Origin: a virus
Reading direction: 5' to 3' (one strand)
Length of the DNA stretch: 64,000 nucleotides
IMG/VR virus record: IMGVR_UViG_3300042465_009257
Coordinates: 62,001 to 126,000 of that record
The number at the start of each line of letters is the position of its first letter. Positions within the stretch are counted from its first letter, which is position 1. The notes under the pieces were generated by a model that was given only the letters and a program-made list of their open reading frames with translations, was not told the origin of the DNA and did not search any database. The translations under genes and the position numbers were made by a program. Below, in pieces: positions 1 through 52,551 of the stretch.

Positions 1-3000
1 CTCCTGTAAATAATGACTCAATATTACCTGTCTCATCTGCCAAAGTGATTTTTGCATATTTATTCCCAGATTTTTTAGCTGTGCCGGTTTTTATCTCTTT
101 AACCTCCGCAACGACTTGGAGTCGCTCTTTTTCATAAAGTTCAGTTTTAATCTGTCCGATTTTAGAAAGGTCAGGATATTCGTCAAAGAGTTCTGAAAGG
201 GTGATACTAGGGCAGTATCCGAGGAGCTTCTTTTCGAAGAGCCATTGGGAGACCATGGGATTTTTGGAGTTCTCTTTGTAGATTTCGAAGTAGCTGGCGC
301 AATTTTTACGGAGAGTAGCCAAGCGTGATTCTTTGCCGATGGGTTTACCGTTCAGGCCAATCCATTCCAAATAACTTTTCATCATAGAAATTAGATCAAA
401 ATTATGAGACTTCCCATTTTCAAGACAATAGTTCTGTTCTTTTGTTGTAAGCTCTTTCCAGATTTTAGAACAGAGAACGGTTTTTTGTCTATCGAATGGA
501 GCAAGATCCTCCAAAACCCCACATTCAATTAAAGCTGAAATAACAGTGGAGTTAACCTTTGATTGCTGTGCCGCTTGGAATACTTCAAATAAATTTGCAG
601 TATCTTTTTGAATAAAGCTTTGAATATTGGCAATAGATTTTTCTGAAATCCCTTTAATAGCTTCTAATCCAAAACGGATATTCGGTCCCTCTAGTTTGAA
701 ATCTCTTTCAGATTTAGTCAGTGATGGGGGTAGAAGTTTCAAATTAAAAGATGGCATCTCTTGGACCAAGATGGACACTTCTTCCGCTTGGTCTTGCTTA
801 TCTTTTGATAAACGTAAAGCTTCCAAAAAGAAATGACTGGGATGATTAAACTTTAAGTATACACTTAAAGCACATAACTTGCTATAACAAAAACTGTGAG
901 AAAAATTGAAAAGATAATCCGCTGACATCAACGCTAGACTCCATAATTTCTTTCCAGCCTCAATATCAATATTATTCTCTGCACATTTGTCATAAATTTT
1001 TTGCTCCCACTGTGCAATCTCATCAACCTTCTTTTTCCCTACGATGCGCCGAATATCATCAGCTTCGCTTAAACTAAAACCAATTTTTACAAAAAGAGCC
1101 ATGAGAGATTCTTGATAAATCATAACTCCTCCAGTCTTATTCAAAATTTCATCAAACAAAGGATGAACACTTGGCTTATCTCCAACTCCATTAACATAAT
1201 CTGCATACTGATCCAAAAAGACAAAACTTCCAGGGCGGCAAATAGCCAATACCGCCGATAGATCGTTCATCGATTTTGGTTTAATTTTATTTAATCCTCT
1301 CTTTGCGCTATCGCCAGAAATCTGGAATAGATTAGATGCACTTTCTAAATTTTGGAGATGACAATAGATATCGTCCCAACTTTCATAATTAATCTTAGAA
1401 ATATCAATCCCTAATGTCTTTACGATATTATCAAAAAGAGTAACTGATTGTAATCCTAAAAGATCAAGTTTGATTGTTGAAATTTCTGCGACATGAGCAT
1501 CTGCCGAAGTTACAATTTCTCCATCATTTCCATACTGCAAAGGCATGAAATCATTAAGAGGGTAATAAGAAATAATATAAGCTGAGGCGTGACTCCCGAA
1601 ATTTTTAATACAATTCTGTAGCTTCTTCACGCACCCGAATATCTCTGGATTATTATCTGCAAATTGTTTTATCTTCTCAGATTCTTCATACGCGGCTTCA
1701 GGTCTAGCGACTTTACCGAATTTAACAGGAATTTCATCTGAATAAACTTTAACCTGCTCTTCTGATAATCCACCGATAACTTTCCCAGCGTCTTTTAATA
1801 AAGCCTTTGTAGTTTGTGTGTTATAGGTCGAAAGTTTTGCGAATTTACCTGGATATTTCCCAGTCAAATATTCAATTACTTTATCTCTAGCTTCGGCCCC
1901 GTAATCGCAATCAATATCGCATAAAGACCCTGCTAAAAAAGTAACTCCATCAATAATTGAAGTTTTTGCGCGGGAAAGAGAAATAAATCTCTCGAAATAT
2001 AATCCTTTATCAACTGGGTCTACATCTACGATTCCCACAAGATAATTGATTAAACTCCCTGCACTAGAGCCTCGTCCGAAGCCATGAGCCAATTTATTTT
2101 TACGAGCAAATCTCATCGTCATCCATACGAGTAGAATATAAGAATCAAAACTTGTTTTATCAAGCATATCTAGCTCATACTCAAATCGTTGGCGATATTC
2201 CTCTTGTCTATCTTTACTTATGTCGCCATTATTTACTTTTTCTTTATATCCATGTCTGGATAAAATACGAAGAGTTTCAATATTCGTGGCACCCTCTGGA
2301 ATATTAAATTCCAATCGATCTTCCTCATCTAACTTAAACTCAGGCAATCTTACTCCTGGTAGAAACAAATCCAAAGGAGTCTCAAACTGCTTTTCAAAAT
2401 CAGACTCTCCATCGCCCAAGATATCCTTATTTTCATTCCAACTCTCTAAGCAAAACTCTGCTGAAGAGAAAAACTCCATATTTGGCTCTTCGATTGTATT
2501 TCCACTACCAAAAGATTTTCTGTCCATTAGTTTCCGCGCTTGGAAATAAGTAAGATCTGCACGGTTCTTGTAATAACAGGTTTTAACCTCGACAGTCTTC
2601 AATCCAAACGCCTTTGCATAATCCAAAGTCTTCTCCCTGATAATCCTATCAAAGAACATATCGCAATCTTCAAGAAACATGAAGGGTTGAATCTTACCAA
2701 AATCAGGAATTGTGCTTGTTTTCCGAGTCAAGTTATTCATAACAAATCCGTCGTAATGAGGAATAGCTAATACCAATTCATCACTCCAAAGTTCCTGTAA
2801 TTTCTTCCAATCAATTCGAGCCTCTTCAAAATATCCATCTACTTGGCCATAGGTTGCCAATTTCACTAAAGATTTCCATCCGGCCTCGCTGCGAACGAAT
2901 ATAATGATTTTGGAAGAACTCTGCTTTTCCTTTTTCGTAGCGTCGTCACAAATTGAAACACGCCAGCCAAATACAAGGTTACAATTCAACGCTTTGGCTG

Positions 3001-6873: not shown

Positions 6874-6880
6874 CGTGAAT

Positions 6881-6909
6881 ATTATACGGTTTATAAGAGA
6901 ATTAGTCAA
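6881..6909 (-). promoter_or_regulatory. sigma70-like promoter, predicted leaderless
   Basis: TTGACT (6904-6909), 17-nt spacer, TATAAT (6881-6886) on the minus strand. The ATG at 6873 begins 7 nt after the -10, so transcription should start at the start codon. The -35 lies over the stop region of the upstream gene. Confidence 0.8.
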
Positions 6910-9621: not shown

Positions 9622-10620
9622 ATGAAGAAGGGTCGTGGAAATTACAGGCTAGACAATTATGTTTATCTATACTTAGATAATCGGAAGCTTGGTAAATGGG
9701 AATTTAGAGACTGGACTTTTCTTTATCAGCCATTTTATGTCGGACGCGGTCTTGATGATAGAATTAACGCACATACAAAGCCGTCTGAACTTTCTAAACC
9801 TTTTCGGAAATCTAGGATAATAAATAAAATAAGACGAGTTCTAGGGGAGGAGGTTATCCGATTTAAACTTTATGAAGATTTATCTTACCAAGAATCGGCG
9901 TTCCTCGAAAAGGATATAATTGCATTTTTTGGGAGAGAGAAAAATGGAGGTATTTTGGTTAATCTCTCTAAGGACGAATGGGACCGCCCGGCGAAAGAAC
10001 GAACTTCAAAAACCTCAAATTCAAGAGCGTTACCCACGAGTAAAAGAGTTAATCAATATTCTTTAGATGGAGTTTTTATAAAAACTTGGGAGTATTTAAC
10101 AGAAATAAGAAACTCTCTGAGAGGGAAAAGTCGAGGGATTGAGTATAGAATCAGAGAATGTTGCAGGGGCGAAAGAGATAACTGTGATGGTTTTATTTGG
10201 AAATATGAGGGGACTTCCCCTTACTCTCCTCCTCGCATTCCTCAGCCACACTCTAAACCTGTTTTTCAATATTTCAATGGGAATTTTGTAAAAAGTTATG
10301 AATCTGGTGTCGAGGCGGCATTACAAACCGGATTAAATCATAAAGCTATATCACTATGTTGTCTAGGAAAAACTAAGACATCAGGAGGTTTTCGGTGGTT
10401 TTTCGAATATGTAGGAGAATCTATACCTCCTCTTGCAGCCACTGTTCGAAAACTATACGGAAGAGGTGTCAACTGTTTCGATTTGGAAATGAACTTTCTT
10501 GAAAAATATATAAATATCAAGGATTTTTCAAGATCCAACTCTATAAATGAATCTGCGGGCTATCGCGCTGTAAATACTGGTTTACCCGTTAAGGGGTTTT
10601 ATGTAAAATACTCTTCATAG
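9622..10620 (+). CDS. GIY-YIG homing endonuclease with NUMOD repeats, cassette 1
   Basis: A 332-residue homing endonuclease. The GIY-YIG module is the divergent type with VYLYLDNRK and PFYVGRGLDDRINAH, and the catalytic Arg follows. The conserved Glu appears to lie in YQESAFLEKDI. After residue 135, three DNA-binding repeats follow: VNQYSLDGVFIKTWEYL, VFQYFNGNFVKSYES and VNCFDLEMNFLEKY. The middle of the repeats has the NUMOD1-like ending SGGFRWFFE. It is on the opposite strand to all flanking phage genes, as expected of an inserted selfish gene. Its target is presumably near the 9.4 kb or 10.6 kb junction. Confidence 0.85.
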   Translation: MKKGRGNYRLDNYVYLYLDNRKLGKWEFRDWTFLYQPFYVGRGLDDRINAHTKPSELSKPFRKSRIINKIRRVLGEEVIRFKLYEDLSYQESAFLEKDIIAFFGREKNGGILVNLSKDEWDRPAKERTSKTSNSRALPTSKRVNQYSLDGVFIKTWEYLTEIRNSLRGKSRGIEYRIRECCRGERDNCDGFIWKYEGTSPYSPPRIPQPHSKPVFQYFNGNFVKSYESGVEAALQTGLNHKAISLCCLGKTKTSGGFRWFFEYVGESIPPLAATVRKLYGRGVNCFDLEMNFLEKYINIKDFSRSNSINESAGYRAVNTGLPVKGFYVKYSS

Positions 10621-10623
10621 TTT

Positions 10624-10884
10624 TCATTTCGTTAATTTCTCAACCTCATTTAATTTTTTAATAATCTTCCCAACATTCTTAATTGCCGCTAGATCAACTT
10701 TAACATCATAAATCACTAAACCTTTTTTAAAAGAAATATTGATTCCAAATGCAGCATCAGCGCTAATCCAACCTCCGTCAAATTCCGCCCAAGCTAGGTC
10801 GTCGGCGTGACCGATTTTAGTAACTTTGATCCCGGCTGATATTAAGATTTCGTTAATTTGGGCAATGGTCGCTTCTGTATCCAT
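10624..10884 (-). CDS. hypothetical protein, 86 aa
   Basis: Unrecognised 86-residue protein: an N-terminal helix (IAQINEILISAGIKVTKIG), two strands around AWAEFDGGWI and INISFKKGLVIYDVKVDL, and a C-terminal helix rich in Lys. The fold looks alpha/beta. It is 3 nt downstream of another small hypothetical gene and ends just beyond the homing cassette, so it is the first phage gene on that side of the insertion. Confidence 0.5.
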   Translation of the reverse strand: MDTEATIAQINEILISAGIKVTKIGHADDLAWAEFDGGWISADAAFGINISFKKGLVIYDVKVDLAAIKNVGKIIKKLNEVEKLTK

Positions 10885-10887
10885 TTC

Positions 10888-11127
10888 CTACCAGTTATAA
10901 TAGCTAATAGATGGGGCATGAATGTCTGAGGCTGATTTACCAAGATAATGTTTCTCATCTTTATCAGCACCACAATCCGCAGAAAAATAAAGAAATCCAT
11001 CTTCATCAATTTTTAAATCTCCTCTCTGCCCATAATAGAATGTATCGTCGCCTGGGCTTCTATTGGAAAAATATGCCCTTGCCGAACCTACTTCCGAGAC
11101 TTTTTCGTAAAGTTTTTTTAAAGTCAT
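10888..11127 (-). CDS. hypothetical protein, 79 aa
   Basis: Unrecognised small protein beginning MTLKKLYEKVSEVG and containing FYYGQRGDLKIDEDGFLYFS. I start it at the ATG 11127; an upstream TTG at 11154 would run into the preceding gene. No motif of known function is visible. It is part of a string of small minus-strand genes. Confidence 0.5.
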   Translation of the reverse strand: MTLKKLYEKVSEVGSARAYFSNRSPGDDTFYYGQRGDLKIDEDGFLYFSADCGADKDEKHYLGKSASDIHAPSISYYNW

Positions 11128-12290: not shown

Positions 12291-13811
12291 TTATTTTGAA
12301 TATTTCGAGTAAGTTGCTTTATTGCGATCTGAAGAGCTTTGACGAGGAGTGAGTTGACCTGCTGATCCCAACGCCGCAACAACGTCCTTATAAGTTCCTG
12401 CCTCTGTAACTCGAAAATTAGAAAAATTTAGATTAATATGATTCTCTACCCAAACTGTTTGGTTTCCTTCTAATACTTCAAAAGGGCCAGACTCATCAGC
12501 GAATTCTCCAAGATTTCGTACAACAATCATACTCAGTTTGTGACTCCCAAATTTATTACTTTCTGTTCCAATCTCTTCTGGACTTTTACGGGTTAAGCTA
12601 AAAATTCCAGTGCTGTACCACTTTACCCGGTCAGCCTGTGCGATTTCTGAAGATCTATTTGTCTGGATGGCTGTAATGGAAATTGTTCTTGGCAGCTTTT
12701 CCGCTAATTGTTTCATAAGATCTGTTTTCATGCCGATTAGCTCATACTCTTTTAATGCTTGGCCTCCATTTCCAGCAGTTCGATCTTCATTTCCGGCAAA
12801 CTTTAGATAATCTAAAACGCATACAAAAATATCATCTGGTCCAACAAATTTAGAATGGAATCTTTTTGCTACACTTTCGATCTTATGAATATCCGCTGTT
12901 GGTAAATAATGATGGTAGATTGTTCCAGCCTTATCTCTAAACGATTGGAGCGAGTCTTGAGTTTTTTCTAAGCGATCTTTATCTTCCGCGAATTTGCCAT
13001 TGAGATAATAAAATGCATTTACTCCACTTTTCGCTGCCATTTTTCGGCAAGCTACCTCTCTTTTTGTCATTTCGGTATCAATAAAAAGAACCCGAATTTT
13101 CCCCTTCTCCCTCTTCGCTCCAAGTTCAACAAAATGATCTGTCAAAGCTGATAAAAAAGAACTCTTGCCTACCTTGGATGAAGCGGCAAAAACATACAGA
13201 CCTCCAATCATAAACTGCCCGTACCAACGATTAAAAATTGGGAAAGGCGACGGGAGTCCAAGCTCTCCTTTATTTCCTAATCCTTCGTTTAGCAAAGCCT
13301 CCATATCCCCATTGATATCGGTAAAGCTTTGGTCTTCTCCTAATACAGATTCAATTGTAACAGCATCAGTAACGATCTTCTCTGTCCCCGATAGAATATC
13401 TCGAAAATTAATCTCAGGATTTTCTAAACTTGTCTCAATAAATTTCTGCGCCTGAATAAGTTTCTTATATGTCTGCCGAGACCAATGGAATTTAGTTAAT
13501 TCGTCTAGGTATGCAATTTTGGCGTCTAAATTAATAGACATATGCGAAATTGAAGTAACGTAGTCGGCAACATCAAGGCCCTCTACGGAACTAAGTCCCA
13601 TCAAATTCAATCTAGAAATTAATAAATGCTCATCTAGTGTTTTTGTTTCAGCATAAAGAGTTTTAATTGCCGAAAATATCTTCTGATTAGGAGGAAAAGA
13701 GAAGAAGTCTGGCTTTAGATGTTCTCCAACTTCTCCAAGCCATCCAGGATCTTTGAAAAAACATGAAATCAAACAACGCTCAACTTCTCCGGTAATAATT
13801 CGTTTTGACAT
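12291..13811 (-). CDS. dnaB: replicative DNA helicase, DnaB family
   Basis: A 506-residue hexameric helicase that unwinds the phage fork. The DnaB N-terminal domain is seen from ERCLISCFFKDPGWLGEVGE through FFSFPPNQKIFSAI. The RecA-like ATPase core has Walker A ASSKVGKSS near residue 210, VLFIDTEMTKREVA, Walker B FVCVLDYLKFAG and the sensor ITAIQTNRSSEI. ATG at 13811; a TTG one codon earlier is also in frame. The alpha-CTD-like protein encoded just upstream is a candidate loader. Confidence 0.9.
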   Translation of the reverse strand: MSKRIITGEVERCLISCFFKDPGWLGEVGEHLKPDFFSFPPNQKIFSAIKTLYAETKTLDEHLLISRLNLMGLSSVEGLDVADYVTSISHMSINLDAKIAYLDELTKFHWSRQTYKKLIQAQKFIETSLENPEINFRDILSGTEKIVTDAVTIESVLGEDQSFTDINGDMEALLNEGLGNKGELGLPSPFPIFNRWYGQFMIGGLYVFAASSKVGKSSFLSALTDHFVELGAKREKGKIRVLFIDTEMTKREVACRKMAAKSGVNAFYYLNGKFAEDKDRLEKTQDSLQSFRDKAGTIYHHYLPTADIHKIESVAKRFHSKFVGPDDIFVCVLDYLKFAGNEDRTAGNGGQALKEYELIGMKTDLMKQLAEKLPRTISITAIQTNRSSEIAQADRVKWYSTGIFSLTRKSPEEIGTESNKFGSHKLSMIVVRNLGEFADESGPFEVLEGNQTVWVENHINLNFSNFRVTEAGTYKDVVAALGSAGQLTPRQSSSDRNKATYSKYSK

Positions 13812-13857
13812 CAATAATTAATTTTACAATAAAGGTTTTCTATGAAAACTAAAATTT

Positions 13858-14472
13858 TCATTTTCTCAAATTCAAAAAGTCCGCTAAGCTACTAGGAGCC
13901 TTCTTCTTGGCTACATACACTACCTCTGGAGCGTTTGCAAGCTCTAAAACCTCCTCTACCCCACCAGCTTCCTCTAAATCGATTTTAGGGGCCTCTATGA
14001 GCCTGACTGGTGCAAACTTCCTAAAGAATTCATCGCACCAAGATGCGATCATTCCACCCGTAAAAAAATATCTAAACGTCGGCGGCTGAATTCTTTCAGG
14101 AATCTTCATATTTCTTACGGTCTCCTTTCCGTACCTCTCAATCAATTGTCCACATTTTTGGTGCTCAATGGCATAATTACTTACTTGACCATCTAAAACA
14201 TGAAGCATGATCTCTTTAGTCTCTGGGTCCCATTTAGGCAATTTCTTTTCCTTCACTGGACCCTTCTTTAACTTAATTCCAGCTTCACGTAGAAATAACC
14301 GTAATTCAGTCAGCAAGACTGCACCTAAGCCATCTAGAGCCTTAATGTCTTGGAGAGTAAAATTTGAAAAATCCGCCGAAGTGTTGATTTGGGCGGATTG
14401 GAGAAGATTAATCGTGCGTTTTGATATAGGGAAATTCCCTATAGGAATAGGCTGTTTTTTGGGTCGGGGCAT
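13858..14472 (-). CDS. protein with RNA polymerase alpha-CTD-like helix-hairpin-helix domain
   Basis: A 204-residue protein. Residues about 13-68 (PISKRTINLLQSAQINTSAD ... LDGLGAVLLTELRLFLREAG) reproduce the layout of the bacterial RpoA C-terminal domain: L-S-x-R..N.L..A.I.T..DL, then a G-x-G...L.E.. helix-hairpin-helix. The rest (from KKGPVKEKK) is unknown, with a FRYFFTGGMIASWCDEFFRK segment. The alpha-CTD fold binds DNA or proteins, so candidate roles are a helicase loader (it lies next to DnaB) or a modifier of host transcription. This is inference from domain and neighbours. Confidence 0.6.
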   Translation of the reverse strand: MPRPKKQPIPIGNFPISKRTINLLQSAQINTSADFSNFTLQDIKALDGLGAVLLTELRLFLREAGIKLKKGPVKEKKLPKWDPETKEIMLHVLDGQVSNYAIEHQKCGQLIERYGKETVRNMKIPERIQPPTFRYFFTGGMIASWCDEFFRKFAPVRLIEAPKIDLEEAGGVEEVLELANAPEVVYVAKKKAPSSLADFLNLRK

Positions 14473-14508
14473 ATTTATTCCATTTAGATTAGGATTTACT
14501 TTGCCATC

Positions 14509-14649
14509 TTACATCTCGACAAGAGGCTCAATTTGTCGCATCACTGCTAGCATTTCATCAAAATCCAACGCTACTACAATTGGCCCAACCTTGATGTTGT
14601 GCTTTTCTTTTCTGCGGCGCAATTCACGTTCTAGATCTTCAGTTTCCAT
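14509..14649 (-). CDS. small hypothetical protein, 46 aa
   Basis: A 46-residue frame starting METEDLERELRRRKEKHNIK and ending VMRQIEPLVEM. The N-terminal half is a charged helix. It is supported mainly by a textbook promoter whose -10 box ends 5 nt before its ATG, so it is probably a genuine leaderless gene. Function unknown. Confidence 0.55.
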   Translation of the reverse strand: METEDLERELRRRKEKHNIKVGPIVVALDFDEMLAVMRQIEPLVEM

Positions 14650-14654
14650 TTTAA

Positions 14655-14683
14655 AGTATATAACCGTTTTGGGTGATTGTCAA
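14655..14683 (-). promoter_or_regulatory. sigma70-like promoter, predicted leaderless
   Basis: Perfect -35 TTGACA (14678-14683), 17-nt spacer, TATACT (14655-14660). The ATG of the 46-residue gene at 14649 begins 5 nt after the -10. The -35 overlaps the stop codon of the upstream nuclease gene. Confidence 0.8.
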
Positions 14684-15138
14684 CTATTTTTTCGCGGAAG
14701 TATATTTGGATAAGTTTTTTCAAACCACTTAATCGTAAGTTCTGGATCATCCTCAAAAAAACGAATTATAGGAAACTTTGAATTCTTAGCGGCGAATAGT
14801 TCTTTTAAACCGTCCCTCGTTAATTGATCTTCAAATTTTTCCATAGTTCCATGGAAATGTTTCGAAAAAATAGAATGCTGATTCCCATCCACTTCGATAA
14901 AAACTTTCTGCTTCTCCTCTTTTTTATCCTCAAAAACACAAAGGAAATCCCATCTAAGCCGATTGATATCTTTTCCACAGAGCGGCACCTCCTCATACCA
15001 TTCTAAATGCGAATAGTGATCACAGAAAAATTTCTTAATCCGGGTTTGAAACTTCGATAAGCTTGCGGCTTTCCATTTGATCTTGTATGGAGCTAGACCA
15101 AGCGGAATTTCATTGCCGCCGAGGGTAGTGAAGATCAT
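14680..15138 (-). CDS. PD-(D/E)XK nuclease, Vsr/DUF559-like
   Basis: A 152-residue single-domain nuclease. RWDFLCVF provides the first catalytic Asp and VFIEVDGNQH the E-x-D-G motif of very-short-patch/DUF559-type enzymes. A downstream QLTRDGLKELFAAKN helix and PIIRFFEDD complete the fold. It may be a structure-specific or nicking endonuclease in recombination. It overlaps the next nuclease-like gene upstream by 4 nt and is followed in the unit by RecA-like and DnaB functions. Confidence 0.72.
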   Translation of the reverse strand: MIFTTLGGNEIPLGLAPYKIKWKAASLSKFQTRIKKFFCDHYSHLEWYEEVPLCGKDINRLRWDFLCVFEDKKEEKQKVFIEVDGNQHSIFSKHFHGTMEKFEDQLTRDGLKELFAAKNSKFPIIRFFEDDPELTIKWFEKTYPNILPRKNS

Positions 15139-26424: not shown

Positions 26425-26702
26425 TTGTTTTTTACGATAAACGCGATTATTGGACTTGTCAATGGAATATATAATGGAAAACCTGCGATAAGGCAAATCC
26501 CGAGAGATAGCCAAAGATTATGGCACAATTGGCATTTCCACAAGTTGAAAATTAAATCTGCACAAATTTTTTCAGCGGCGCGACGACTTTGCATCCAAAT
26601 CAGAAGCCTAGTTCTGAAATCTTCAAAAAGTGTAGACTCATGGGTTACAAAATTTAAATAAGACAGTAAAATGCCTACGCAAATAATTAGTTCTAAATTC
26701 AT
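26406..26702 (-). CDS. small membrane protein, DUF1360-like
   Basis: A 98-residue membrane protein with an N-terminal segment (LELIICVGILLSYLNFV) and a second hydrophobic region (LWLSLGICLIAGFPLYIPLT) ending with IIAFIVKN. WKCQLCHNLWLSL resembles the CPFC.GFW signature of DUF1360-type phage and sporulation membrane proteins. The start ATG overlaps the kinase stop (ATGA), which supports translation. Role unknown; holin-like function is possible but unproven. Confidence 0.55.
   Translation of the reverse strand: MNLELIICVGILLSYLNFVTHESTLFEDFRTRLLIWMQSRRAAEKICADLIFNLWKCQLCHNLWLSLGICLIAGFPLYIPLTSPIIAFIVKNKCLNPT
26434..26462 (-). promoter_or_regulatory. sigma70-like promoter inside upstream gene
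   Basis: Perfect -35 TTGACA (26457-26462), 17-nt spacer, weak -10 TATCGT (26434-26439), 9 nt before the ATG at 26424. It lies within the 3' end of the membrane-protein gene. Confidence 0.6.
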
Positions 26703-27388
26703 ACATCTTGTAAACCTTCTTTTAGCTCCGAGTCAACCCATTTTTCCATTTTTCTCACCATCTCGCCGCCTTCTTTCCACAAACCAGAATTTTCCTTCAT
26801 TACACGTTCCACCTCTAAACGTGGAATCGACTCTCCATTCTCAAATTTGCTAAAATCATGCCAGCGGAATTGAACATCAGCAGCTTTGCGGATTAGTGGG
26901 TCATTTTTCTCTTCCTCGCTGTTCGCTGGCTCTAGAACATGGAATTGCCCATACCAGTCCTTGCTGTCATATCTTTCAACGTGGACGATTTTCCCACCAT
27001 TAGATTTTACAAATCCAAGCTCGTCGCCGCCGCCAAATTCCGCAAAACGCAAATCCGTAATAAATCTTACTTGCGGTCCTTCTGGGGAAAGGAGAGTATC
27101 TCGGATTTTATTCAACCAATACTGCCCCTTACTATCATTTCTGCGGAGCTTGCCATATTGAACAAGCAATGGCCGAACCCTTGTCTTCTCTTCAGTAACC
27201 TCGGTAAACGCCGAAAATCCAAACTTATCAGTTATAAAATGGTCCAGGTCTCTCTTCAATTCGTCGGCGAAAGCCCATCGCCCGCAGGTGATTCCTTCTT
27301 CTTTGAGAAAATCAGAGGCGAATCTGTAAAAAGAGTCCTTGCCCGATCGCCCGACCCCCGAAAGGGCTATAATTTTAAATGATTTCAT
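26699..27388 (-). CDS. deoxynucleoside monophosphate kinase, intact copy
   Basis: A 229-residue T4 gp1-type dNMP kinase, which phosphorylates dNMPs for the reductase/ThyX pathway. The P-loop GVGRSGKDS lies at residues 11-19, CGRWAFADELKRDL follows, and VRFITDLRFAEF plus GKIVHVERYDS fit the core. I start it at the ATG 27388: a frame from TTG 27424 begins inside the -35 box of its own promoter. A diverged 5' stump of a second copy lies at 28510-28674, across the inserted homing cassette. Confidence 0.82.
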   Translation of the reverse strand: MKSFKIIALSGVGRSGKDSFYRFASDFLKEEGITCGRWAFADELKRDLDHFITDKFGFSAFTEVTEEKTRVRPLLVQYGKLRRNDSKGQYWLNKIRDTLLSPEGPQVRFITDLRFAEFGGGDELGFVKSNGGKIVHVERYDSKDWYGQFHVLEPANSEEEKNDPLIRKAADVQFRWHDFSKFENGESIPRLEVERVMKENSGLWKEGGEMVRKMEKWVDSELKEGLQDV

Positions 27389-27394
27389 TCCTTT

Positions 27395-27424
27395 ATTATA
27401 GGTGGAAACGAAAGAAAAAGTCAA
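27395..27424 (-). promoter_or_regulatory. sigma70-like promoter, predicted leaderless
   Basis: TTGACT (27419-27424), 18-nt spacer, TATAAT (27395-27400), 6 nt before the kinase ATG at 27388. The same arrangement, also with an 18-nt spacer, precedes the truncated kinase copy. Confidence 0.8.
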
Positions 27425-27570: not shown

Positions 27571-27729
27571 ATGAATCACCGAATTAAAACTAAACGCTAT
27601 AATTTTTGCTTTGACCCGAAAATTGACGAACTCTTGAAAAAAATTAAAGCAGAAACTTCAATAGGATTAACGAAAATTGTGGAGTTAGCTGTTGTTGATT
27701 TTGCCGAAAAGAAAGGAGTTTCTTTATGA
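27571..27729 (+). CDS. small ribbon-helix-helix (CopG/Arc-like) protein, cassette 2
   Basis: A 52-residue basic protein: strand KRYNFCF, helix A IDELLKKIKAET, helix B LTKIVELAVVDFAEKKG. It is homologous to the RHH gene at 9465 (21 of 51 residues identical by eye) and in the same position relative to a GIY-YIG gene. Its TGA overlaps the endonuclease ATG (ATGA), so the two are translationally coupled. It is a likely autoregulator of the selfish cassette. Confidence 0.72.
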   Translation: MNHRIKTKRYNFCFDPKIDELLKKIKAETSIGLTKIVELAVVDFAEKKGVSL

Positions 27730-28523
27730 TCGGTGTCGTTTTTAACATGAATATCGAATCTCTTGCGATTTGCCCAAGAACCAACGGAATTTACAAAATC
27801 ACAAATACGAAAACAGGAAGATTCTATATTGGCCGAGCAGAATACAAGAAAGGTTTTTTTCGCCGGTGGTATCACCATAGGTGGCAACTTAGAAAAAATA
27901 TCCATGAAAATCCTCATTTGCAAAACTCTTATAACAAATATGGAGAGTCTTGTTTCACCTTCGAGATTCTTGAAATTAAAGACTATGGAGATCCGTTAAT
28001 AGATCTAGAGTCAGAATATATCATAAATTTAAAAGCCATGTACTTTGAAGACGGGTATAATCTTACGAATGAAAGGTTTGCCGCAAAATATCCTAAAATA
28101 TACAGAGAAAATCATCATAACTCAAAAGAATTTGAACTGCTTGACCCAGAAGGAAATTTAATTAAAGGCAGGAATTTAAGTCAATTCTGTGAAGAACTAG
28201 ATGTGGGCGTAGGAGCCATGTGGGATGTCATCCACGGAGATAGAAAATCCTACAAAGGATTCAAATCTCCCAATCCCGAATTTCACGTAGTTAAAAAAGA
28301 GTATCGCTTGCTCTCGCCCGAAAAAGAATTGTTCGTATTTGACAACGCCGCAGAATTCGCGAGAAAGATAGGGGTAAACAAACGTTCTATACACAAAGTA
28401 TTAAAAGGGGAAAGGTCTAATGCCGAGGGCTACCATCTTGAAAATCCATTACCAGAACATCAAAGAAATCTTGATAATTATTTCAATAGGAAGCATCTCT
28501 CTGATCGAATCAACTTTCAATGA
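27726..28523 (+). CDS. GIY-YIG homing endonuclease with NUMOD repeats, cassette 2
   Basis: A 265-residue endonuclease. The catalytic module shows NGIYKITNTKTGRFYIGRAE, FFRRWYHHRWQLRK (catalytic Arg and following basic helix), NKYGESCFTFEILE and DLESEYI (the conserved Glu). The C-terminal half has NUMOD-type helix-turn-helix repeats (LSQFCEELDVGVGAMWDVIH; AAEFARKIGVNKRSIHKVLK). A second ATG nine codons in is an alternative start. Its 3' end runs 14 nt into the truncated kinase copy, so the kinase gene was the insertion target. Confidence 0.9.
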   Translation: MIGVVFNMNIESLAICPRTNGIYKITNTKTGRFYIGRAEYKKGFFRRWYHHRWQLRKNIHENPHLQNSYNKYGESCFTFEILEIKDYGDPLIDLESEYIINLKAMYFEDGYNLTNERFAAKYPKIYRENHHNSKEFELLDPEGNLIKGRNLSQFCEELDVGVGAMWDVIHGDRKSYKGFKSPNPEFHVVKKEYRLLSPEKELFVFDNAAEFARKIGVNKRSIHKVLKGERSNAEGYHLENPLPEHQRNLDNYFNRKHLSDRINFQ

Positions 28524-28674
28524 ATCCGTCCAAATCCTTTTTTAGCTCATCAGCAAAAGCCCAGCGGCCACATGAAATTCCCTCCGTTTCTAGAAATTCC
28601 GAAGCGAAGCGGTAAAAAGAGTCCTTCCCCGCCCGACCGACGCCAGAGATTCCGATAATTTTAAATGGTTGCAT
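28510..28674 (-). pseudogene. 5' stump of a second dNMP kinase gene
   Basis: A 54-residue frame, MQPFKIIGISGVGRAGKDSF onward, that matches the first 52 residues of the intact kinase at 41 positions and then stops (TGA) at the end of the homing endonuclease gene. It keeps the P-loop and its own promoter but lacks about three quarters of the enzyme. It is most simply the recipient allele left behind when the cassette and a donor kinase gene were copied in. A short peptide may still be made. Confidence 0.8.
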
Positions 28675-28680
28675 TGATGA

Positions 28681-28710
28681 ATTGTATCGGGCTTTTGTGC
28701 GGAAAGTCAA
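28681..28710 (-). promoter_or_regulatory. sigma70-like promoter of the kinase stump
   Basis: TTGACT (28705-28710), 18-nt spacer, TACAAT (28681-28686), 6 nt before the ATG at 28674. It is homologous in layout to the intact kinase promoter at 27395-27424. Confidence 0.7.
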
Positions 28711-28764
28711 TCTTAGAATTTTTAAAATTAAATTCCTTTTCTGCATATTCGCCTGTAAAAGAAC

Positions 28765-28793
28765 TTGACTTATTTGATTTCCGACTTTTTAAT
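28765..28793 (+). promoter_or_regulatory. sigma70-like promoter, predicted leaderless, plus strand
   Basis: TTGACT (28765-28770), 17-nt spacer, TTTAAT (28788-28793), 7 nt before the ATG at 28801. It is the only plus-strand member of the promoter series and drives the polymerase-like gene, divergent from the kinase stump promoter. Confidence 0.7.
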
Positions 28794-28800
28794 TACTGTG

Positions 28801-30345
28801 ATGCCTAAAATGAATTACTCTCTGGTAAACCCCGATAAAACGATTCTCAAAAATGAAAACATGATTCGAACAATAGGGTATGGGGGAGAGGGGACCATTG
28901 CTGGAGGGAGGGAGAGGGTGTCTCTTTATAAGGGGAGGTTTAGAGAAGTACAAGAAGTAATAGAGGGGAGGTCTATACTTAGTAATGATGTAGATTGGGA
29001 ATTTAAAGAGAAATCTTTCTTAATCCCTTCAGACTTTTCTAATAATGAGCTTCTTAGCCTTGGCTTGAAAGAGAAACATATTGCGAATGCTATGGTTTTT
29101 CTTTCCTTATTAAGGATTTCAACAAAGTACAAAGAGGTTGTTCTGAGGGATGTTAATCCATTCAGTAGAATTAACAGTATAGTTCTTTCGGAATTTATGT
29201 TAACTCTTGGCTCCGGTACGAAAGACATGTTGAAAAAATTAAGCATTGCACAATGGATTGAGATTGACCATTCTTACCAAGCAGGAATCAAATCAAAAGG
29301 ATATCGTCTTGGGAAAAGATTTGAAAACTCAAAATGGATTTCCGCAAATTGGAAAGAAAGTCTTGAAAAATTTGTCCCAGGTGTCCTGCAAGGAGGTTAT
29401 ATTTCTAGGAGCAGAGATGTTTTGTATGGACTCTGGGATAGAGCTTGTATATATTTTACCAACTGGCAGGCTATGGCTGACGGCCCTTTAAAGGAAATCT
29501 GCAAAAGAACGTCAGAAATAGGCCGTAAATTGATCGTAAGATACTGTGAGGCTCTGACTAAGGAAATTAATACAAACGCTGTAGAGCATATCAAATGCCC
29601 AGCAAATCAAGCATCTGTAGAAAATGGATGGACACTAGAGAAACAAATTCAAAATTATTGGGATTCTTTGTCGTATTTTGACGGTAAAAGTTTTTCTGTT
29701 ACCTGTCACGACGAAAGGTTTAAGTTTTTTACTTACCGTTTGTATTCAAATGTTGTAAATTTAAAATCTGAGTTTCGCCAATTTCTAGAACTAGATGGAC
29801 AGCAAATGGTGAACGTGGATATCCAATCCTGCCAAGTGGCTTTACTGGCGACATTCTATAACACTGAAGATTTAGTGGAAAAAGAGAAATTCATCAAAAT
29901 TATTTGCGAAAAAGATATTTATCTATTTATCGCGGGAGATAAAATTGAGCGGAAACAAGCGAAATCTGACTTTTTCTATATCATGTTCGACAAGAATTGT
30001 AACCAAAAAGGAGAAACTTGCCGCCGATTTAAAGAGGAATTTCCAATCTTAACTCAAAGGATTTACGACGAAAAGAAAAGAAATGGTTATAAAAGTGTAG
30101 CTCGTCTAATGCAGACAAAAGAAGCTTCTATTATGATATTAGGAGCATTGAATAAACTCCTTTTCGTAAATGAAATTGAAGCTTTTTCAATCCACGACTC
30201 TATCTTTTGTCTTCTTAAAGACGTAAAATTAGTAGAAGAAACTATCCGCTCCTTCTTTACAAATCAAATGGGCTTCTGCCCAGCAATTAAAGTGGAAGCG
30301 CCCAGAGTGGATGAATCTGCCAACCGTATTGGGCAGCAATCATAA
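28801..30345 (+). CDS. compact family-A-like polymerase of unknown role
   Basis: A 514-residue protein whose C-terminal half carries the palm/fingers motifs of single-subunit family A polymerases. Motif A is VNVDIQSCQVALLA (Asp 340). Motif B is ERKQAKSDFFYIMFDKN (Arg 384, Lys 388), preceded by DIYLFIAG. A QTKEASIMILGAL helix and motif C FSIHDSIFC (Asp 466) follow. No 3'-5' exonuclease domain is visible and the first 280 residues match nothing I know. The same motif pattern occurs in uncharacterised proteins of bacteria and phages (established only as a recollection of the pattern). I start it at ATG 28801; the in-frame TTG 28765 is the -35 box. It is on the opposite strand to neighbouring phage genes and overlaps the next one at its 3' end by 59 nt. 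Confidence 0.65.
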   Translation: MPKMNYSLVNPDKTILKNENMIRTIGYGGEGTIAGGRERVSLYKGRFREVQEVIEGRSILSNDVDWEFKEKSFLIPSDFSNNELLSLGLKEKHIANAMVFLSLLRISTKYKEVVLRDVNPFSRINSIVLSEFMLTLGSGTKDMLKKLSIAQWIEIDHSYQAGIKSKGYRLGKRFENSKWISANWKESLEKFVPGVLQGGYISRSRDVLYGLWDRACIYFTNWQAMADGPLKEICKRTSEIGRKLIVRYCEALTKEINTNAVEHIKCPANQASVENGWTLEKQIQNYWDSLSYFDGKSFSVTCHDERFKFFTYRLYSNVVNLKSEFRQFLELDGQQMVNVDIQSCQVALLATFYNTEDLVEKEKFIKIICEKDIYLFIAGDKIERKQAKSDFFYIMFDKNCNQKGETCRRFKEEFPILTQRIYDEKKRNGYKSVARLMQTKEASIMILGALNKLLFVNEIEAFSIHDSIFCLLKDVKLVEETIRSFFTNQMGFCPAIKVEAPRVDESANRIGQQS

Positions 30346-30571
30346 GGGCATCTTTTAGAGGGATAGGAACTTGTGTCGGCCCGAAAGCTCCATCTTCGTC
30401 CTCAAAACCCGCTGACCAGCAAATATCATTTCCATTAAATTTTCCGAACTGTGGGCGAAGGCTCATCAAGTAAACGGTCATGTTTGGATCTGGGAAATCT
30501 TCTTTGTCAACGTCTCTCCAGTAATCTGGTGCCGCGACATTATCCCACAAATTTACTTTTTGATCTTCCAT
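30287..30571 (-). CDS. hypothetical protein, 94 aa
   Basis: Unrecognised 94-residue protein starting MEDQKVNLWDNVAAPDYWRD. An acidic beta-rich middle (ICWSAGFEDEDGAFGPTQVP) is followed by a helix (LKDALMIAAQYGW). Its last 59 nt overlap the convergent polymerase-like gene, so its C-terminus may have been changed by that insertion. It has its own leaderless-type promoter. Confidence 0.55.
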   Translation of the reverse strand: MEDQKVNLWDNVAAPDYWRDVDKEDFPDPNMTVYLMSLRPQFGKFNGNDICWSAGFEDEDGAFGPTQVPIPLKDALMIAAQYGWQIHPLWALPL

Positions 30572-30579
30572 ACCGCTTG

Positions 30580-30608
30580 ATTCTAAATTATTTTTTAAAT
30601 AAAGTCAA
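30580..30608 (-). promoter_or_regulatory. sigma70-like promoter, predicted leaderless
   Basis: TTGACT (30603-30608), 17-nt spacer, TAGAAT (30580-30585), 8 nt before the ATG at 30571. The -35 overlaps the stop codon of the nuclease gene upstream. Confidence 0.72.
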
Positions 30609-30928
30609 GTCATAAACGGTACAGCATGTCCATCAGCAACAATTAATTCATTTAAATTAACTTCATCTAAATATACAGTCGCCAGCCACCTTCCGTATTT
30701 ATCTGTAGGATTTTTGAAAGTTTCAATGGTAACTTCTTTTCCAACTGGTAACTTCGTTTTGACGTAAGCTGTTGCTTCTGAACCTCCTAAAGCATTTCTC
30801 TCTGGGGTATTAATTCCAATGAGTCTCACGCGAACCTCATGATTGATGCGAAATCCAAGAGACACGAAAAAGTCAATAGTGTCACCATCGACGACTCGCT
30901 GAACAGTAGCTTTATATTTGTAGTACAT
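30605..30928 (-). CDS. thermonuclease-like (SNase) nuclease
   Basis: A 107-residue staphylococcal-nuclease fold protein. VVDGDTIDF holds the calcium-binding Asp residues, VRVRLIGINTPERN the first catalytic Arg and Glu, and DKYGRWLATVYLD the second Arg. It has no signal peptide, so it acts inside the cell or in the virion. It follows the tail-tip genes in the same direction, 15 nt after the 228-residue gene, an unusual place for a nuclease. Confidence 0.85.
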   Translation of the reverse strand: MYYKYKATVQRVVDGDTIDFFVSLGFRINHEVRVRLIGINTPERNALGGSEATAYVKTKLPVGKEVTIETFKNPTDKYGRWLATVYLDEVNLNELIVADGHAVPFMT

Positions 30929-30943
30929 AATAGTTTTAAAAAG

Positions 30944-31630
30944 TTAATTTCGATAATACCCCGAGACTTTATCATAGGTGAATGGCAAGTCTTTCTTCTT
31001 GCCGCCCTGCTCTACTTTATAAATATCAGAAAAGTAACGAATTGATCCGCAATCAAAGTATTCAATATTTAAACGTCCATTTATAGGCTCAATTGAGAAA
31101 ATAGGTATATAAAGGGTGTAGGTCAAATTCCCTAATTCATCATATTTTAAACCAGAATTTTTTGGAATAGCCGTCCCTTGTTCAATCCGCGCCCATTGTG
31201 TGCTTAATTTTTCATAGTCGCCTCTTGTATACCCATATGGAATTTTCATCCAAAATAAGGTTTTCCCAACCTTATCTACAAAAAACCTCCCACCTGAGGC
31301 ATCATCTGGAGTTAAATATAAATTTTCGCTAGTCTCAGTATCAACATCAAACGCTGTAAGAGGGAAGTACTGAGAAATTTCATCTTTTCTTTTCTCCTTT
31401 ACTAAAAATGAATATAAGAAAATTGCAAACTCAGTTGCCGCAGGTGAATAAAAGTCCAAAAAAGAATTTCCTAAAACGCTTGAAGAAGATGATGCAACAT
31501 TAAAATCACGTAGAAGTTGCGGTCTAAATCGCGGCCCAACATTAATTTCATATTTTGAATCTGTTACGTCACGAACTGAAACTCGAAAGTCTCTTATTGG
31601 TTGAATATAAGTTGGTCTACTTTCAAACAC
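30944..31630 (-). CDS. putative tail-tip protein, 228 aa
   Basis: Last gene of the tail block, unrecognised. It is a beta-rich protein with an N-terminal IQPIRDFRVSVRDVTDSKYE and a C-terminal SIEPINGRLNIEYFDCG. The start is a GTG (31630) overlapping the stop of the 316-residue gene by 8 nt. The virion role is inferred only from tight coupling to the tail genes upstream. Confidence 0.5.
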   Translation of the reverse strand: MFESRPTYIQPIRDFRVSVRDVTDSKYEINVGPRFRPQLLRDFNVASSSSSVLGNSFLDFYSPAATEFAIFLYSFLVKEKRKDEISQYFPLTAFDVDTETSENLYLTPDDASGGRFFVDKVGKTLFWMKIPYGYTRGDYEKLSTQWARIEQGTAIPKNSGLKYDELGNLTYTLYIPIFSIEPINGRLNIEYFDCGSIRYFSDIYKVEQGGKKKDLPFTYDKVSGYYRN

Positions 31631-32573
31631 GGCAGAAAAAATGGTCGTTAAAGTCTTTTAGATCAGATGAAGAAGAGGTGCCCTTAAATTGAAAAACCTG
31701 TCGATATCTATTTTTACCAGAAATATCATCACGATATTCCTGAAGTAAATCTGGCGATATATTATTAATATCAATAGTAGTCCCTTTACTAAAAATTAAT
31801 TCAGTTGCAGATCCTAATCCAGAATAGCTAGAGTTTTCCCAAGAGTCCAATAAAGTAATAGAGACTTTATCTTTCATGTATGGCGCTCCTTCTTTTATTA
31901 TCCAAGACCCTCCAAGCTTCTCAAATACATTTTTAGCCATTAACTGGTCAAAGCTTATAATTTCTGCCCCTAGAACTCTTGAATAATTCTCTGGATTAAT
32001 GGGGGTTCCATCTGGATTGGCCTGTTTTTTAATTAAAAAATAAATTTGGCCCCTATTATAATTTATATTTTCAGGTTCTTTTGGCAATGCGTATCCATCT
32101 TGATCAAATTTAATTGTTGTCGTAAGAGTCGCCGCATCAATACTCTTTTGATCTTTAAAATCAATCTGTTTCATTTCAGTCCCATTAATCATTATCGGGA
32201 TACGGTACTTTTCTAATTCATCTTCAGTTAATATTAAATTCTGATTAAATGTGATAATATTATATGTCCCATCAGATAATTTTACTACTAAAAGCGGTTT
32301 AGTTCGAGACCTCTCAATACTAGAAATATCATAAAGTTTACCTCTTTGGATTGCCACTTTAATAGTTACCTCTAGATTTTTCGGCCCAGGAACTAAAAAA
32401 TTAGGAGTATCTTCATAAATTGGAGCATTTGATTCTAAATAATATTTTTTAAAAGGATAATCATCAGGATACGGCGCACCTATGATTGGCGCAATTAGCT
32501 CATTACGCTCGGTGCCAACCCACCTTCTATTTTGGAATCCTACCCAACGCGGGATATAACTCGATTCAAACAT
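31623..32573 (-). CDS. putative tail-tip protein, 316 aa
   Basis: A 316-residue protein with a Tyr/Pro-rich start (FESSYIPRWVGFQNRRWVG) and several beta segments, unrecognised. Its ATG overlaps the stop of the 851-residue gene (TAATG) and its stop overlaps the next gene. It is part of a five-gene chain of overlapping structural genes. Confidence 0.5.
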   Translation of the reverse strand: MFESSYIPRWVGFQNRRWVGTERNELIAPIIGAPYPDDYPFKKYYLESNAPIYEDTPNFLVPGPKNLEVTIKVAIQRGKLYDISSIERSRTKPLLVVKLSDGTYNIITFNQNLILTEDELEKYRIPIMINGTEMKQIDFKDQKSIDAATLTTTIKFDQDGYALPKEPENINYNRGQIYFLIKKQANPDGTPINPENYSRVLGAEIISFDQLMAKNVFEKLGGSWIIKEGAPYMKDKVSITLLDSWENSSYSGLGSATELIFSKGTTIDINNISPDLLQEYRDDISGKNRYRQVFQFKGTSSSSDLKDFNDHFFCRV

Positions 32574-39266: not shown

Positions 39267-41156
39267 TCAATTATATTGGATGATAATTGCATTATAAACT
39301 ATTGCATTCCCATTATAAAGCAAGCCAGAGAAGTTCATGAACTCGCTTGCTATATATTTTGCATCAGCGCTCCAGCTAAAATTAAAGGAATAGAAGTCTC
39401 CATTTTTATCTTCTTCAATTTGACTATTGAGAAGAACCCTGTTTGACCCAGGGAAATATTTGAGCATAAGGAGATTAACTCTTGATTTAATTTCTCCTAT
39501 AGCAGATTCTTTAGAATAGCATTTTACCCTTTTTGCTGTTCCATTCATCGCAAACTGTTTGCGATTTTTAAATCCAAGATCTTGCACGCTATAATAACCC
39601 ATGCCATTTAAAATTGGCTCAGGCGCATACTTTTGAATTGATGGCGTAAAGTCCATCGTATATTTAAAAGCTTCAATTGCTGAACACTCAACTTCGACTT
39701 CAGCGCAATACTGAACCGAGAAAGAAATTTCTCCAGAAAAAGGATTATATGTAAGTGATTTGGAATTTGCGTTGGCATTTAAAGTTTCCCCATTTCCATA
39801 AATCGCCCATTTCTGTAAAACCCGCGCATCCCAATTTATGTTTTCAAAGAAAGTTTTAACTAGATCATAGCGAGTCCCTGGACATCCAGAGTCTGATTTC
39901 ACTTTTCCTGTATATTGGAAACAGGTTGGACCGCCTGATTTGCTAATAGAAACAGTTGAAGTATCTATGATATATGGAGAACTTTCCGCTTGGGAATTCC
40001 ATCCCATGTCAAAAGAAACTGTACCAAGATCTGGATTTTCAGTTATAGATAAGTTAACAATCGATGCCAAGATTAAAGTTCCGCCATTTGCGGTATATTC
40101 GCTTTGAGCAATTGCTTGGAAATCAATAGAGTCAAACGTTGTTTTGGCATTGACAATTTCATTTGCCGCCGCGTCAACCCGAGCAACTTGAATTTCGCCG
40201 GAAATATTAACGGTAGTCGTTCCTTCTGATTCGGAAACAGAAGTCGTATAAGTGATGATTCCGTATCCCGCGCCCGTGTATTCAGGATTATACAGCCAAG
40301 TTTCAACCATCCTAAATTCGCCAGTGAGACGATTGCAGAAGCTTTTTCTTGAAATCAGTGGATATTTGCGATTTTTAGAATCGACTAATAAAGGAGTTGT
40401 GTCATTATCTAATAAAAGGAATGTTTCTACTCCTCCGTCCATAAATAAGAAAACATCGTCTGCCCCATCTGATTGAGAAAATACGAAATCTCTTGCTTTT
40501 TCAAATGCTTGATTTCCAACCCCACGAGCCGAAACAGTATGGGTGATTGTAACTGTAGAATCTGCTGTCTCGTCAGTAGTCCACTGGTTTACTGGATCAA
40601 GAATATTTGAATCATTATAAGAGGCAATACAGTCGATGACAATCTCATATCGGTAAAATCCAGAGAAATTAGATTCTGGGAAAGAGATTGAAATAATCTT
40701 TGCGGCAGAATGATAAAAGATCTGATTAGAGTCTTCTAGAATTTCAAAAGTCTTAAACTGCTGAGAGAAATAATATTTGAGTAAATCAAAATCATTTTTA
40801 TAATCTAAGAAGGATGCGTTACAAGAAGACCCTTTTACCTCAAAAGGAGAATAAGTTGAACTTCCATCAGGTCGAAAAATTGAGGAGACCCCATCTGAAC
40901 GTATGTAAATAGAACCGCTTTCAGGAGATAGCTCTGTTCCAAAAAAAGAATCTCCATCTGAGTCGGCAATCAAGCTTCCGTCTGAATCAATAATAGAAAA
41001 AAATGCAGCATTCGGGCGAGGGCGAGTTCCAGAAAGAGTCAGCCGAGTGACTCCAGAAATATATCCATTAACCTCCTGCCGATTAAATTCGCGTGAAACG
41101 AAAGGAGTCCGAGTTCCGAATGGATTAACTCCATTATATTTAATTTCAATAGCCAT
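39267..41156 (-). CDS. putative tail-tip protein, 629 aa
   Basis: A 629-residue protein of unknown family: the N-terminus NGVNPFGTRTPFVSREF, a GVTRLTLSGTRPRP segment, then alternating beta modules with conserved-looking cysteine pairs (SYNDSNIL; GPTCFQYTGKVKSDSGCPG; QYCAEVEVECSAIEAF). Its ATG overlaps the stop of the 547-residue gene (TAATG), so the two are coupled. A distal-tail function is inferred from position. Confidence 0.5.
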   Translation of the reverse strand: MAIEIKYNGVNPFGTRTPFVSREFNRQEVNGYISGVTRLTLSGTRPRPNAAFFSIIDSDGSLIADSDGDSFFGTELSPESGSIYIRSDGVSSIFRPDGSSTYSPFEVKGSSCNASFLDYKNDFDLLKYYFSQQFKTFEILEDSNQIFYHSAAKIISISFPESNFSGFYRYEIVIDCIASYNDSNILDPVNQWTTDETADSTVTITHTVSARGVGNQAFEKARDFVFSQSDGADDVFLFMDGGVETFLLLDNDTTPLLVDSKNRKYPLISRKSFCNRLTGEFRMVETWLYNPEYTGAGYGIITYTTSVSESEGTTTVNISGEIQVARVDAAANEIVNAKTTFDSIDFQAIAQSEYTANGGTLILASIVNLSITENPDLGTVSFDMGWNSQAESSPYIIDTSTVSISKSGGPTCFQYTGKVKSDSGCPGTRYDLVKTFFENINWDARVLQKWAIYGNGETLNANANSKSLTYNPFSGEISFSVQYCAEVEVECSAIEAFKYTMDFTPSIQKYAPEPILNGMGYYSVQDLGFKNRKQFAMNGTAKRVKCYSKESAIGEIKSRVNLLMLKYFPGSNRVLLNSQIEEDKNGDFYSFNFSWSADAKYIASEFMNFSGLLYNGNAIVYNAIIIQYN

Positions 41157-52476: not shown

Positions 52477-52551
52477 ACAGTAAAATTAGTTAATATTCTT
52501 TACAATCAGTCGGTTTTAAATGGAAATTTTAATTTTTGTTTTTTAATTAGC

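Follow-up and report, generated by a model that had tools for sequence, protein, structure and literature searches.

TV-Pols, which occur on viruses and mobile elements, have been predicted to act as both primase and polymerase (PMC2579912, Iyer, Abhiman and Aravind 2008). CCPol-MP of SCCmec primes de novo with the help of a partner (PMC7581432, PMC10061031) and prefers dNTPs (PMC7581432), so that priming and the use of ribonucleotides have to be treated as separate questions. In Pol I, it is E710 that blocks ribonucleotides (PMC9324360). A survey of tailed phages found more than one DNA polymerase in only 8 genus-level groups, out of 563 that encode any (PMC11348598).

The protein considered here (P0001) is encoded in a stretch of 64,000 nucleotides of phage DNA, referred to as the window, which comprises positions 62,001 to 126,000 of the 173-kb IMG/VR record IMGVR_UViG_3300042465_009257. 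A first-pass annotation took it for a second, compact, family-A-like polymerase in a phage already provided with a family C replicase. Both parts of that description stand, the one on homologue conservation and fold, the other on the DnaE domain of the replicase. Our own proposal, to which we give an even chance, is that P0001 is a compact family-A polymerase, catalytically competent and lacking an exonuclease, which makes short or initiating products beside DnaE and is probably acquired cargo. The gene, the parts of its product and the replicase domain are the following.

28801..30345, plus strand: coding sequence of the compact family-A-like polymerase P0001, 514 aa (open frame, homologues, fold)
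28801..29025, plus strand: N-terminal ~75 residues, unique to P0001, of low model confidence and with no counterpart in the alignments
29071..29310, plus strand: residues 91-170, helix-helix-helix-strand-strand, winged-helix-like to judge from secondary structure, in the same order in the family model
29404..29667, plus strand: residues 202-289, long helices, the presumed thumb according to the model
29737..29739, plus strand: Arg313, the hairpin arginine, aligned with E. coli Pol I R668 (R in 54/54)
29809..29847, plus strand: motif A, VNVDIQSCQVALL, with catalytic Asp340 and Gln345 at the steric gate (D 54/54, Q 54/54)
29914..29997, plus strand: fingers with motif B, D372-I-Y374 ... R384xxxK388 ... 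F396 (K 54/54, R/K 53/54, F 53/54)
30112..30123, plus strand: Gln438 ... Glu441, the PolA Q849 region (Q 53/54, E 54/54)
30193..30201, plus strand: motif C, His465-Asp466-Ser467 (H and D 54/54, S 53/54)
1454..2272, minus strand: DNA_pol3_alpha domain of the phage DnaE (family C) replicase (PF07733, E 2.5e-52)

The gene is real. Counted from the ATG, its product of 514 aa comes from a single open frame (526 aa if the start is the TTG at 28765), and a chance ORF was dropped as a reading because, when the surrounding 3 kb were base-shuffled 300 times, the longest frame averaged 95 codons and was never longer than 199. At its 3' end the frame overlaps, tail to tail and by 59 bases, a neighbour on the minus strand (30287-30571). 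That no ribosome site precedes the ATG is uninformative because this phage is almost without Shine-Dalgarno sequences, which are found at the starts of only 2 of the 17 large minus-strand genes checked in the window; A/T-rich leaders and near-absent Shine-Dalgarno sequences, as seen on these 17 genes, are as in Bacteroidota phages. The promoter of its own that had been ascribed to the gene did not survive a consensus scan, which found no site on the plus strand within 280 bases upstream. Inspection by eye gives a candidate promoter only, TTGACT-17-TTTAAT, around 28765-28793, and promoter-like sites in the region are modestly numerous (22 vs 14.0 +/- 4.1 in shuffles).

In the predicted structure, palm and fingers are confident (pLDDT mostly 80-94) and the N-terminus is poor (pLDDT about 30 over residues 1-70); the palm, on whose presence the polymerase assignment had been staked, is there. 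Foldseek matches the model to KlenTaq, Bst, Klenow and T7 DNA polymerase in the PDB (E 1.7e-5, probability 1.00), and the PDB matches of palm and fingers are family-A DNA polymerases only. Overall TM-scores against the PDB are low (0.25-0.30), because half of the model is uncertain. A viral structure library returns compact phage proteins called DNA polymerase and, as its 25th match, a replication protein of a virophage. The protein contains no recognisable nuclease (it has no Pfam match of any kind), as had been claimed. Of the 280 N-terminal residues that had been called novel, however, only about the first 75 are unique, and residues ~75-300 align with the N-domain and thumb of a family of relatives. 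Reading the protein as a PolA exonuclease fragment was rejected, there being no exonuclease, and the N-domain being its own and conserved in the family.

That family is not easily reached. Sequence searches of Pfam, NCBIfam, PADLOC and the PDB with P0001 give no match, and PF00476 (DNA_pol_A) matches nothing in the whole 173-kb record, even at E 10. Single-sequence searches find only the same phage (contig L001, 100% identical over 13.5 kb), tblastn against plasmids yields nothing meaningful, and the genome contigs scanned contain no confirmed relative. Loosening the threshold brings in two proteins of megaphages, 387 and 418 aa long; a profile made from these and P0001 extends to 28 and then to 31 loci, and a broader profile to at least 140 confirmed relatives in IMG/VR, 80 of the 140 being kept. 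Searching the PDB with profiles A1 and A2 gives no match. Phages of 595-735 kb (LR756501, LR756502, LR756504, LR745206 and LR756511) carry members, and a Hymenobacter plasmid protein, WP_187734701, also belongs (profile match E 5.7e-26). P0001 aligns with the family profile (alignment A5) over residues 294-499 (hhalign probability 98.4, E 4.7e-15) and has all of the 'DIxNSQ' family invariants (the D, the gate Q, the fingers K, E441 and HD). Its sequence thus makes it a divergent member of this unannotated phage 'DIxNSQ' polymerase family, placed there by the profile match despite its missing DxxGR and NSQP, which are majority and not universal traits of the family as defined here. In the tree it groups with DnaE-bearing jumbo phages and the Hymenobacter plasmid protein (88/59, weak), and its branch is the longest (4.78), P0001 being the most divergent member sampled.

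Residue conservation was read from alignments of 3, 23, 24 and 54 relatives, the last set counting P0001 itself; equivalences with PolA rest on the anchoring motifs and on an alignment with the E. coli protein that is collinear, though weak by its statistics. The family-A catalytic set of P0001 consists of R313, D340, R384/K388, Q438 and H465-D466, with D340, R384, K388 and D466 lying where they had first been placed. Catalytic aspartates that varied among homologues would have spoken against a polymerase; D340 and D466 are invariant in all sets, from 3 to 54 relatives, and K388 and H465 are equally unchanging. The DxxGR hairpin of the family (D in 52 of 54, G in 53) is gapped in P0001, which keeps only the R, and motif A of P0001 reads QSCQV where most relatives have NSQP. 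Gln345, five residues after the motif A aspartate, takes the position of E710 of E. coli Pol I and is Gln in every one of the 54 sequences. The Pol I Tyr766 position is Phe, and the Glu883 position, directly after His-Asp, is Ser, each in 53 of 54. D372 of P0001 sits in KDIY; relatives carry other residues there.

The divergence of P0001 raises the question of a decaying or repurposed copy that has kept its fold and serves mainly as a DNA-binding regulator. The long branch, the missing D and G of DxxGR and the change of NSQP to SCQV would all fit, but all catalytic residues are kept despite the divergence, the 514-codon frame is intact and codon usage is typical of the phage, and we regard such a copy as very improbable indeed. 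The lost D and G and the longest branch also count against our proposal, since P0001 may be drifting.

The same residues also bear on a single-subunit RNA polymerase, which would transcribe a phage gene set or make RNA primers and which, in the main clade of the family, might be packaged in the virion, since the gene lies there beside the major capsid gene. RNAP-type DxxGR is present in relatives, the gate Glu is absent, motif C is HDS, and a gp23-type capsid gene is near the compact polymerase in some main-clade loci. The model of a family representative (L006; pLDDT 92.7, pTM 0.87) has its best E-values with the apicoplast DNA polymerase (Pol I), but its top query TM-score among the top matches is with human mitochondrial RNA polymerase (0.44, vs 0.43 for Pol theta and 0.42 for Taq); residues 51-118 of this model, helix-strand-helix-helix-strand-strand, would read as a winged helix. 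Against an RNA polymerase stand the size of the compact proteins (400-514 aa vs about 880 aa or more in known enzymes), the want of a significant T7 RNAP profile match (hhalign E 0.5-0.6 for P0001 and for the family profile; E 0.014, at a probability of 3%, for a 4-row subgroup) and the lack of DxxGR in P0001 itself. HDS was downgraded as a sign of an RNA polymerase because a true phage DNA polymerase, that of Tt72, has it as well (S616; PMC9324360). A T7-type RNA polymerase was dropped as first choice on size and the absent profile match, and a single-subunit RNA polymerase in the wider sense seems to us improbable.

Whatever it makes, the compact polymerase has company. Another replicative polymerase is present in all 17 of the large phages checked, with the window's phage counted. 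Among the 16 further large records, a family B polymerase scores above the cut-off in 14, and the two that remain, LR756511 and the 341-kb contig of L012, possess DnaE and a short PolA whose gene adjoins that of the compact polymerase. Since a replicative polymerase is there in 17 of 17, the compact polymerase is an accessory enzyme and not the genome copier. Two side observations belong here. In LR756511 (L003:4434-6880) the frames of the compact polymerase and the short PolA overlap by 4 bases, and the short PolA, of about 430-460 aa in L003 and L012, could form a two-polymerase unit with its neighbour. The family B polymerase appears to be divided between two genes far apart, each of about 370-530 aa, in LR745206, LR756502, LR756504 and the IMG/VR contigs of L120, L148 and L022, with the N-terminal part of PF00136 in one gene and the palm part in the other, and with TAA or TAG inside the match in some of the frames.

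An accessory polymerase without proofreading could be a DNA polymerase that depends on a primer and fills gaps or bypasses lesions, working at repair or recombination ends in the manner of accessory A-family polymerases. The missing exonuclease, the compact fingers and the replicase that is always alongside agree with such a role, and homing endonuclease breaks need repair synthesis. It sits less well with the gate, where the Glu conserved in PolA-type enzymes is an invariant Gln, with a winged-helix-like N-domain that would be unusual in a repair polymerase, and with neighbourhoods that hold no pointer to repair. We consider this role possible but unlikely.

The neighbourhood of the gene in the window, and the other homing-endonuclease-like genes, are made up as follows.

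26699..27424, minus strand: full-length kinase, probably a deoxynucleoside monophosphate kinase (PF21448 E 0.003, below cut-off)
27726..28523, plus strand: GIY-YIG / NUMOD homing endonuclease adjoining the polymerase gene (PF22083 E 7.6e-8; PF01541 E 0.002, below cut-off)
28510..28746, minus strand: truncated N-terminal kinase copy, broken off at the end of the homing endonuclease (129 nt align with the full copy at 74% identity)
9622..10620 of the window, opposite the phage genes: homing-endonuclease-like gene
G000 5925-6884, 10072-11124, 13642-14811, 29933-30970 and 51615-52553, opposite the phage genes: homing-endonuclease-like genes, of GIY-YIG/NUMOD and LAGLIDADG types
G000 39915-40844 and 59775-60917, opposite the phage genes: homing-endonuclease-like genes, by eye only

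The homing endonuclease next door is as it had been described, and the polymerase gene does run against the tail genes, in a phage whose large frames amount to 118 kb on the minus strand vs 18 kb on the plus strand. Its flanks hold the kinase, the homing endonuclease, a 94-aa ORF and SNase. In the first ~155 kb, five of six scanned plus-strand genes match GIY-YIG, NUMOD or LAGLIDADG (E <=5e-5) and the sixth (G000 29933-30970) has a weak LAGLIDADG match (E 2e-4); among the substantial plus-strand genes of that region, which are mostly homing endonucleases, the polymerase gene clearly departs from the pattern. This departure, beside a homing endonuclease and a truncated kinase copy, gives the gene the look of acquired cargo, and it probably arrived together with a homing-endonuclease cassette or adjacent to one. 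The simplest reading would be that a stretch of a related phage came in during a homing event. A compositional test for recent import gives no signal, codon usage being typical of the phage (z 0.11), so that the import would not be recent or the donor would be similar. The empty-site comparison found the tail protein encoded at 31626-32573 in no related phage except the identical contig, leaving the insertion without date or proof. The truncated kinase copy beside the full one looks like a homing or recombination scar. Plus-strand ORFs at G000 164000-173358 have a GC content of 0.45-0.53, vs 0.39 for the genome, and unusual codon usage; some of them may be non-genes, or this end may be a different segment.

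The first-pass annotation had offered a mobile-element polymerase among its candidates, and the position among counter-strand homing endonucleases makes a link of that kind plausible. Its strongest form is a selfish-element polymerase, constituting one mobile cassette with the adjacent homing endonuclease and helping to copy the element into new sites. The two genes share a strand and are 0.3 kb apart, with the truncated kinase copy between them, homing endonucleases account for the other convincing plus-strand genes in the first ~155 kb, and TV-Pols were defined on mobile elements (PMC2579912). Yet no relative is found in the same arrangement, no empty site was located, and neither a recombinase nor terminal repeats were identified. 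The relatives' loci of the main clade have fixed neighbours instead (a 443-aa protein, a 179-aa protein and a glycosyltransferase, in 73-80 of 111). This survey of homologues, which the first-pass annotation had suggested, did find stable neighbours, but none of them points to a function. For the selfish cassette we see a slim chance.

Returning to short or initiating products, the parts of P0001 would be used as follows. The N-terminal winged-helix-like domain would bind DNA sites; the two palm aspartates D340 and D466 would bind metal; R384 and K388 of the short fingers would hold the incoming triphosphate; and a helical thumb would lie between the N-domain and palm/fingers. Primers or starting strands would then be made at the sites bound by the N-domain. 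The choice between dNTPs and rNTPs may be relaxed, given that Gln invariably replaces the steric-gate Glu, but a Gln gate is no proof of ribonucleotide use. Priming, taken as a claim by itself, is somewhat short of an even chance in our estimate. It is favoured because nuclease-less analogues on mobile DNA are predicted (TV-Pol) or shown (CCPol-MP) to prime, and because all 54 sequences have Gln in place of the Glu with which Pol I excludes ribonucleotides. What speaks against it is that no helicase, SSB or recombinase lies beside the gene and that the record contains no D5_N helicase. Priming would, moreover, be redundant, since by-eye reading of the window's ORFs gives the phage a putative TOPRIM primase (8135-9058) and a putative DnaB-like helicase (12291-13814). 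More tentatively still, the family might constitute a separate phage lineage of stand-alone primases or mixed DNA/RNA initiators, distinct from replicases and from DnaG/AEP primases, built on the family-A fold with an invariant Gln gate, carried as an extra in many of the largest phages known and moved between phages by homing elements.

The compact family is an extra polymerase in all of the large phages checked, including those of 595-735 kb, despite the rarity of second polymerases in the survey of tailed phages, and none of the profile libraries searched identifies it as a polymerase. Should priming or ribonucleotide use prove true, the family would add another case to the primases derived from family-A polymerases. 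The gate substitution is a distinct and testable active-site signature, for which one purified protein suffices.

In comparison with Pol I (PF00476), P0001 has the palm and fingers, the equivalents of R668, D705, K758 and H881/D882, and its best PDB matches. It differs in lying below Pfam detection, in having no exonuclease, in the spacing of its two aspartates (126 residues vs 177 in E. coli Pol I) and in its Gln for Glu710, Phe for Tyr766 and Ser for Glu883. Profile comparison with canonical PolA yields no significant sequence link, the tie being one of fold and motifs. With the mitochondrial and T7 RNA polymerases there is a common core fold, and relatives have DxxGR and HDS, but the compact polymerase is half the size. 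CCPol-MP also has an A-family catalytic domain without proofreading and is found on mobile DNA. It is closer to PolA in sequence than P0001 is, and its small OB-fold partner and Cch helicase are encoded adjacent to it, neither being found beside the P0001 gene.

The proteins of phrog_4756, from Rheinheimera Barba, Vibrio ICP1, Aeromonas and Pseudoalteromonas phages, have about 430 aa, the same layout of N-domain and polymerase, the motif A Asp, RxxxK and the motif C Asp, and they too accompany another polymerase: gp034 of Barba25A exists alongside gp022 (PolB-like by eye) and DnaG, and ICP1, whose replicase is of Pol-I type (PMC7145576), carries an unannotated phrog_4756 relative elsewhere in its genome. 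The phrog_4756 match to the family profile has a probability of 95.8 (E 7.5e-9), and to P0001 alone E 0.036; the PHROG profile itself matches P0001 at E 9.6e-4, over residues 318-398 only. phrog_4756 differs in forming a separate clade in the tree (100/100), in a canonical-looking DYSQ/DYK motif A with other gate residues, and in not always keeping the His of motif C. Proteins of this type (L152:8989-10293 in Vibrio phage ICP1, L151:20416-21723, which is gp034, in Rheinheimera phage Barba25A) are compact and polymerase-like, carry the label hypothetical in the majority of the 234 phage records retrieved, and are a second polymerase in well-studied phages.

TV-Pols have 400-600 aa and no nuclease, to which the 514 aa of P0001, with no Pfam match, correspond, and their hairpin Arg, two palm Asp and RxxxK have counterparts in R313, D340, D466 and R384xxxK388. 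For the conserved fingers Asp of TV-Pols, D372 of P0001 is a candidate at most, relatives having other residues there. A TV-Pol has a D5-like helicase fused or adjacent to it, or a resolvase, integrase or transposase as neighbour, and the neighbour of P0001 is a homing endonuclease; no D5_N helicase is found in the phage record, and the compact polymerase occurs in large tailed phages that have a replicase as well. The sole presumed TV-Pol compared, picked by eye, was Ma-LMM01 MAP_030 (L070:22746-24266), which, judged by its motifs and the transposase genes adjoining it, is likely the TV-Pol reported there by Iyer et al.; the comparison gave no significant match. Close copies of MAP_030 occur in 16 further IMG/VR loci, and its relatives, being near-identical only, give no usable TV-Pol profile. 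The gene in the window had been put forward as undescribed in kind; it belongs instead to a large phage family, so far unannotated, whose relatives or analogues already described are TV-Pol, CCPol-MP and phrog_4756. The family would work like the TV-Pols and phrog_4756 and is probably related to them.
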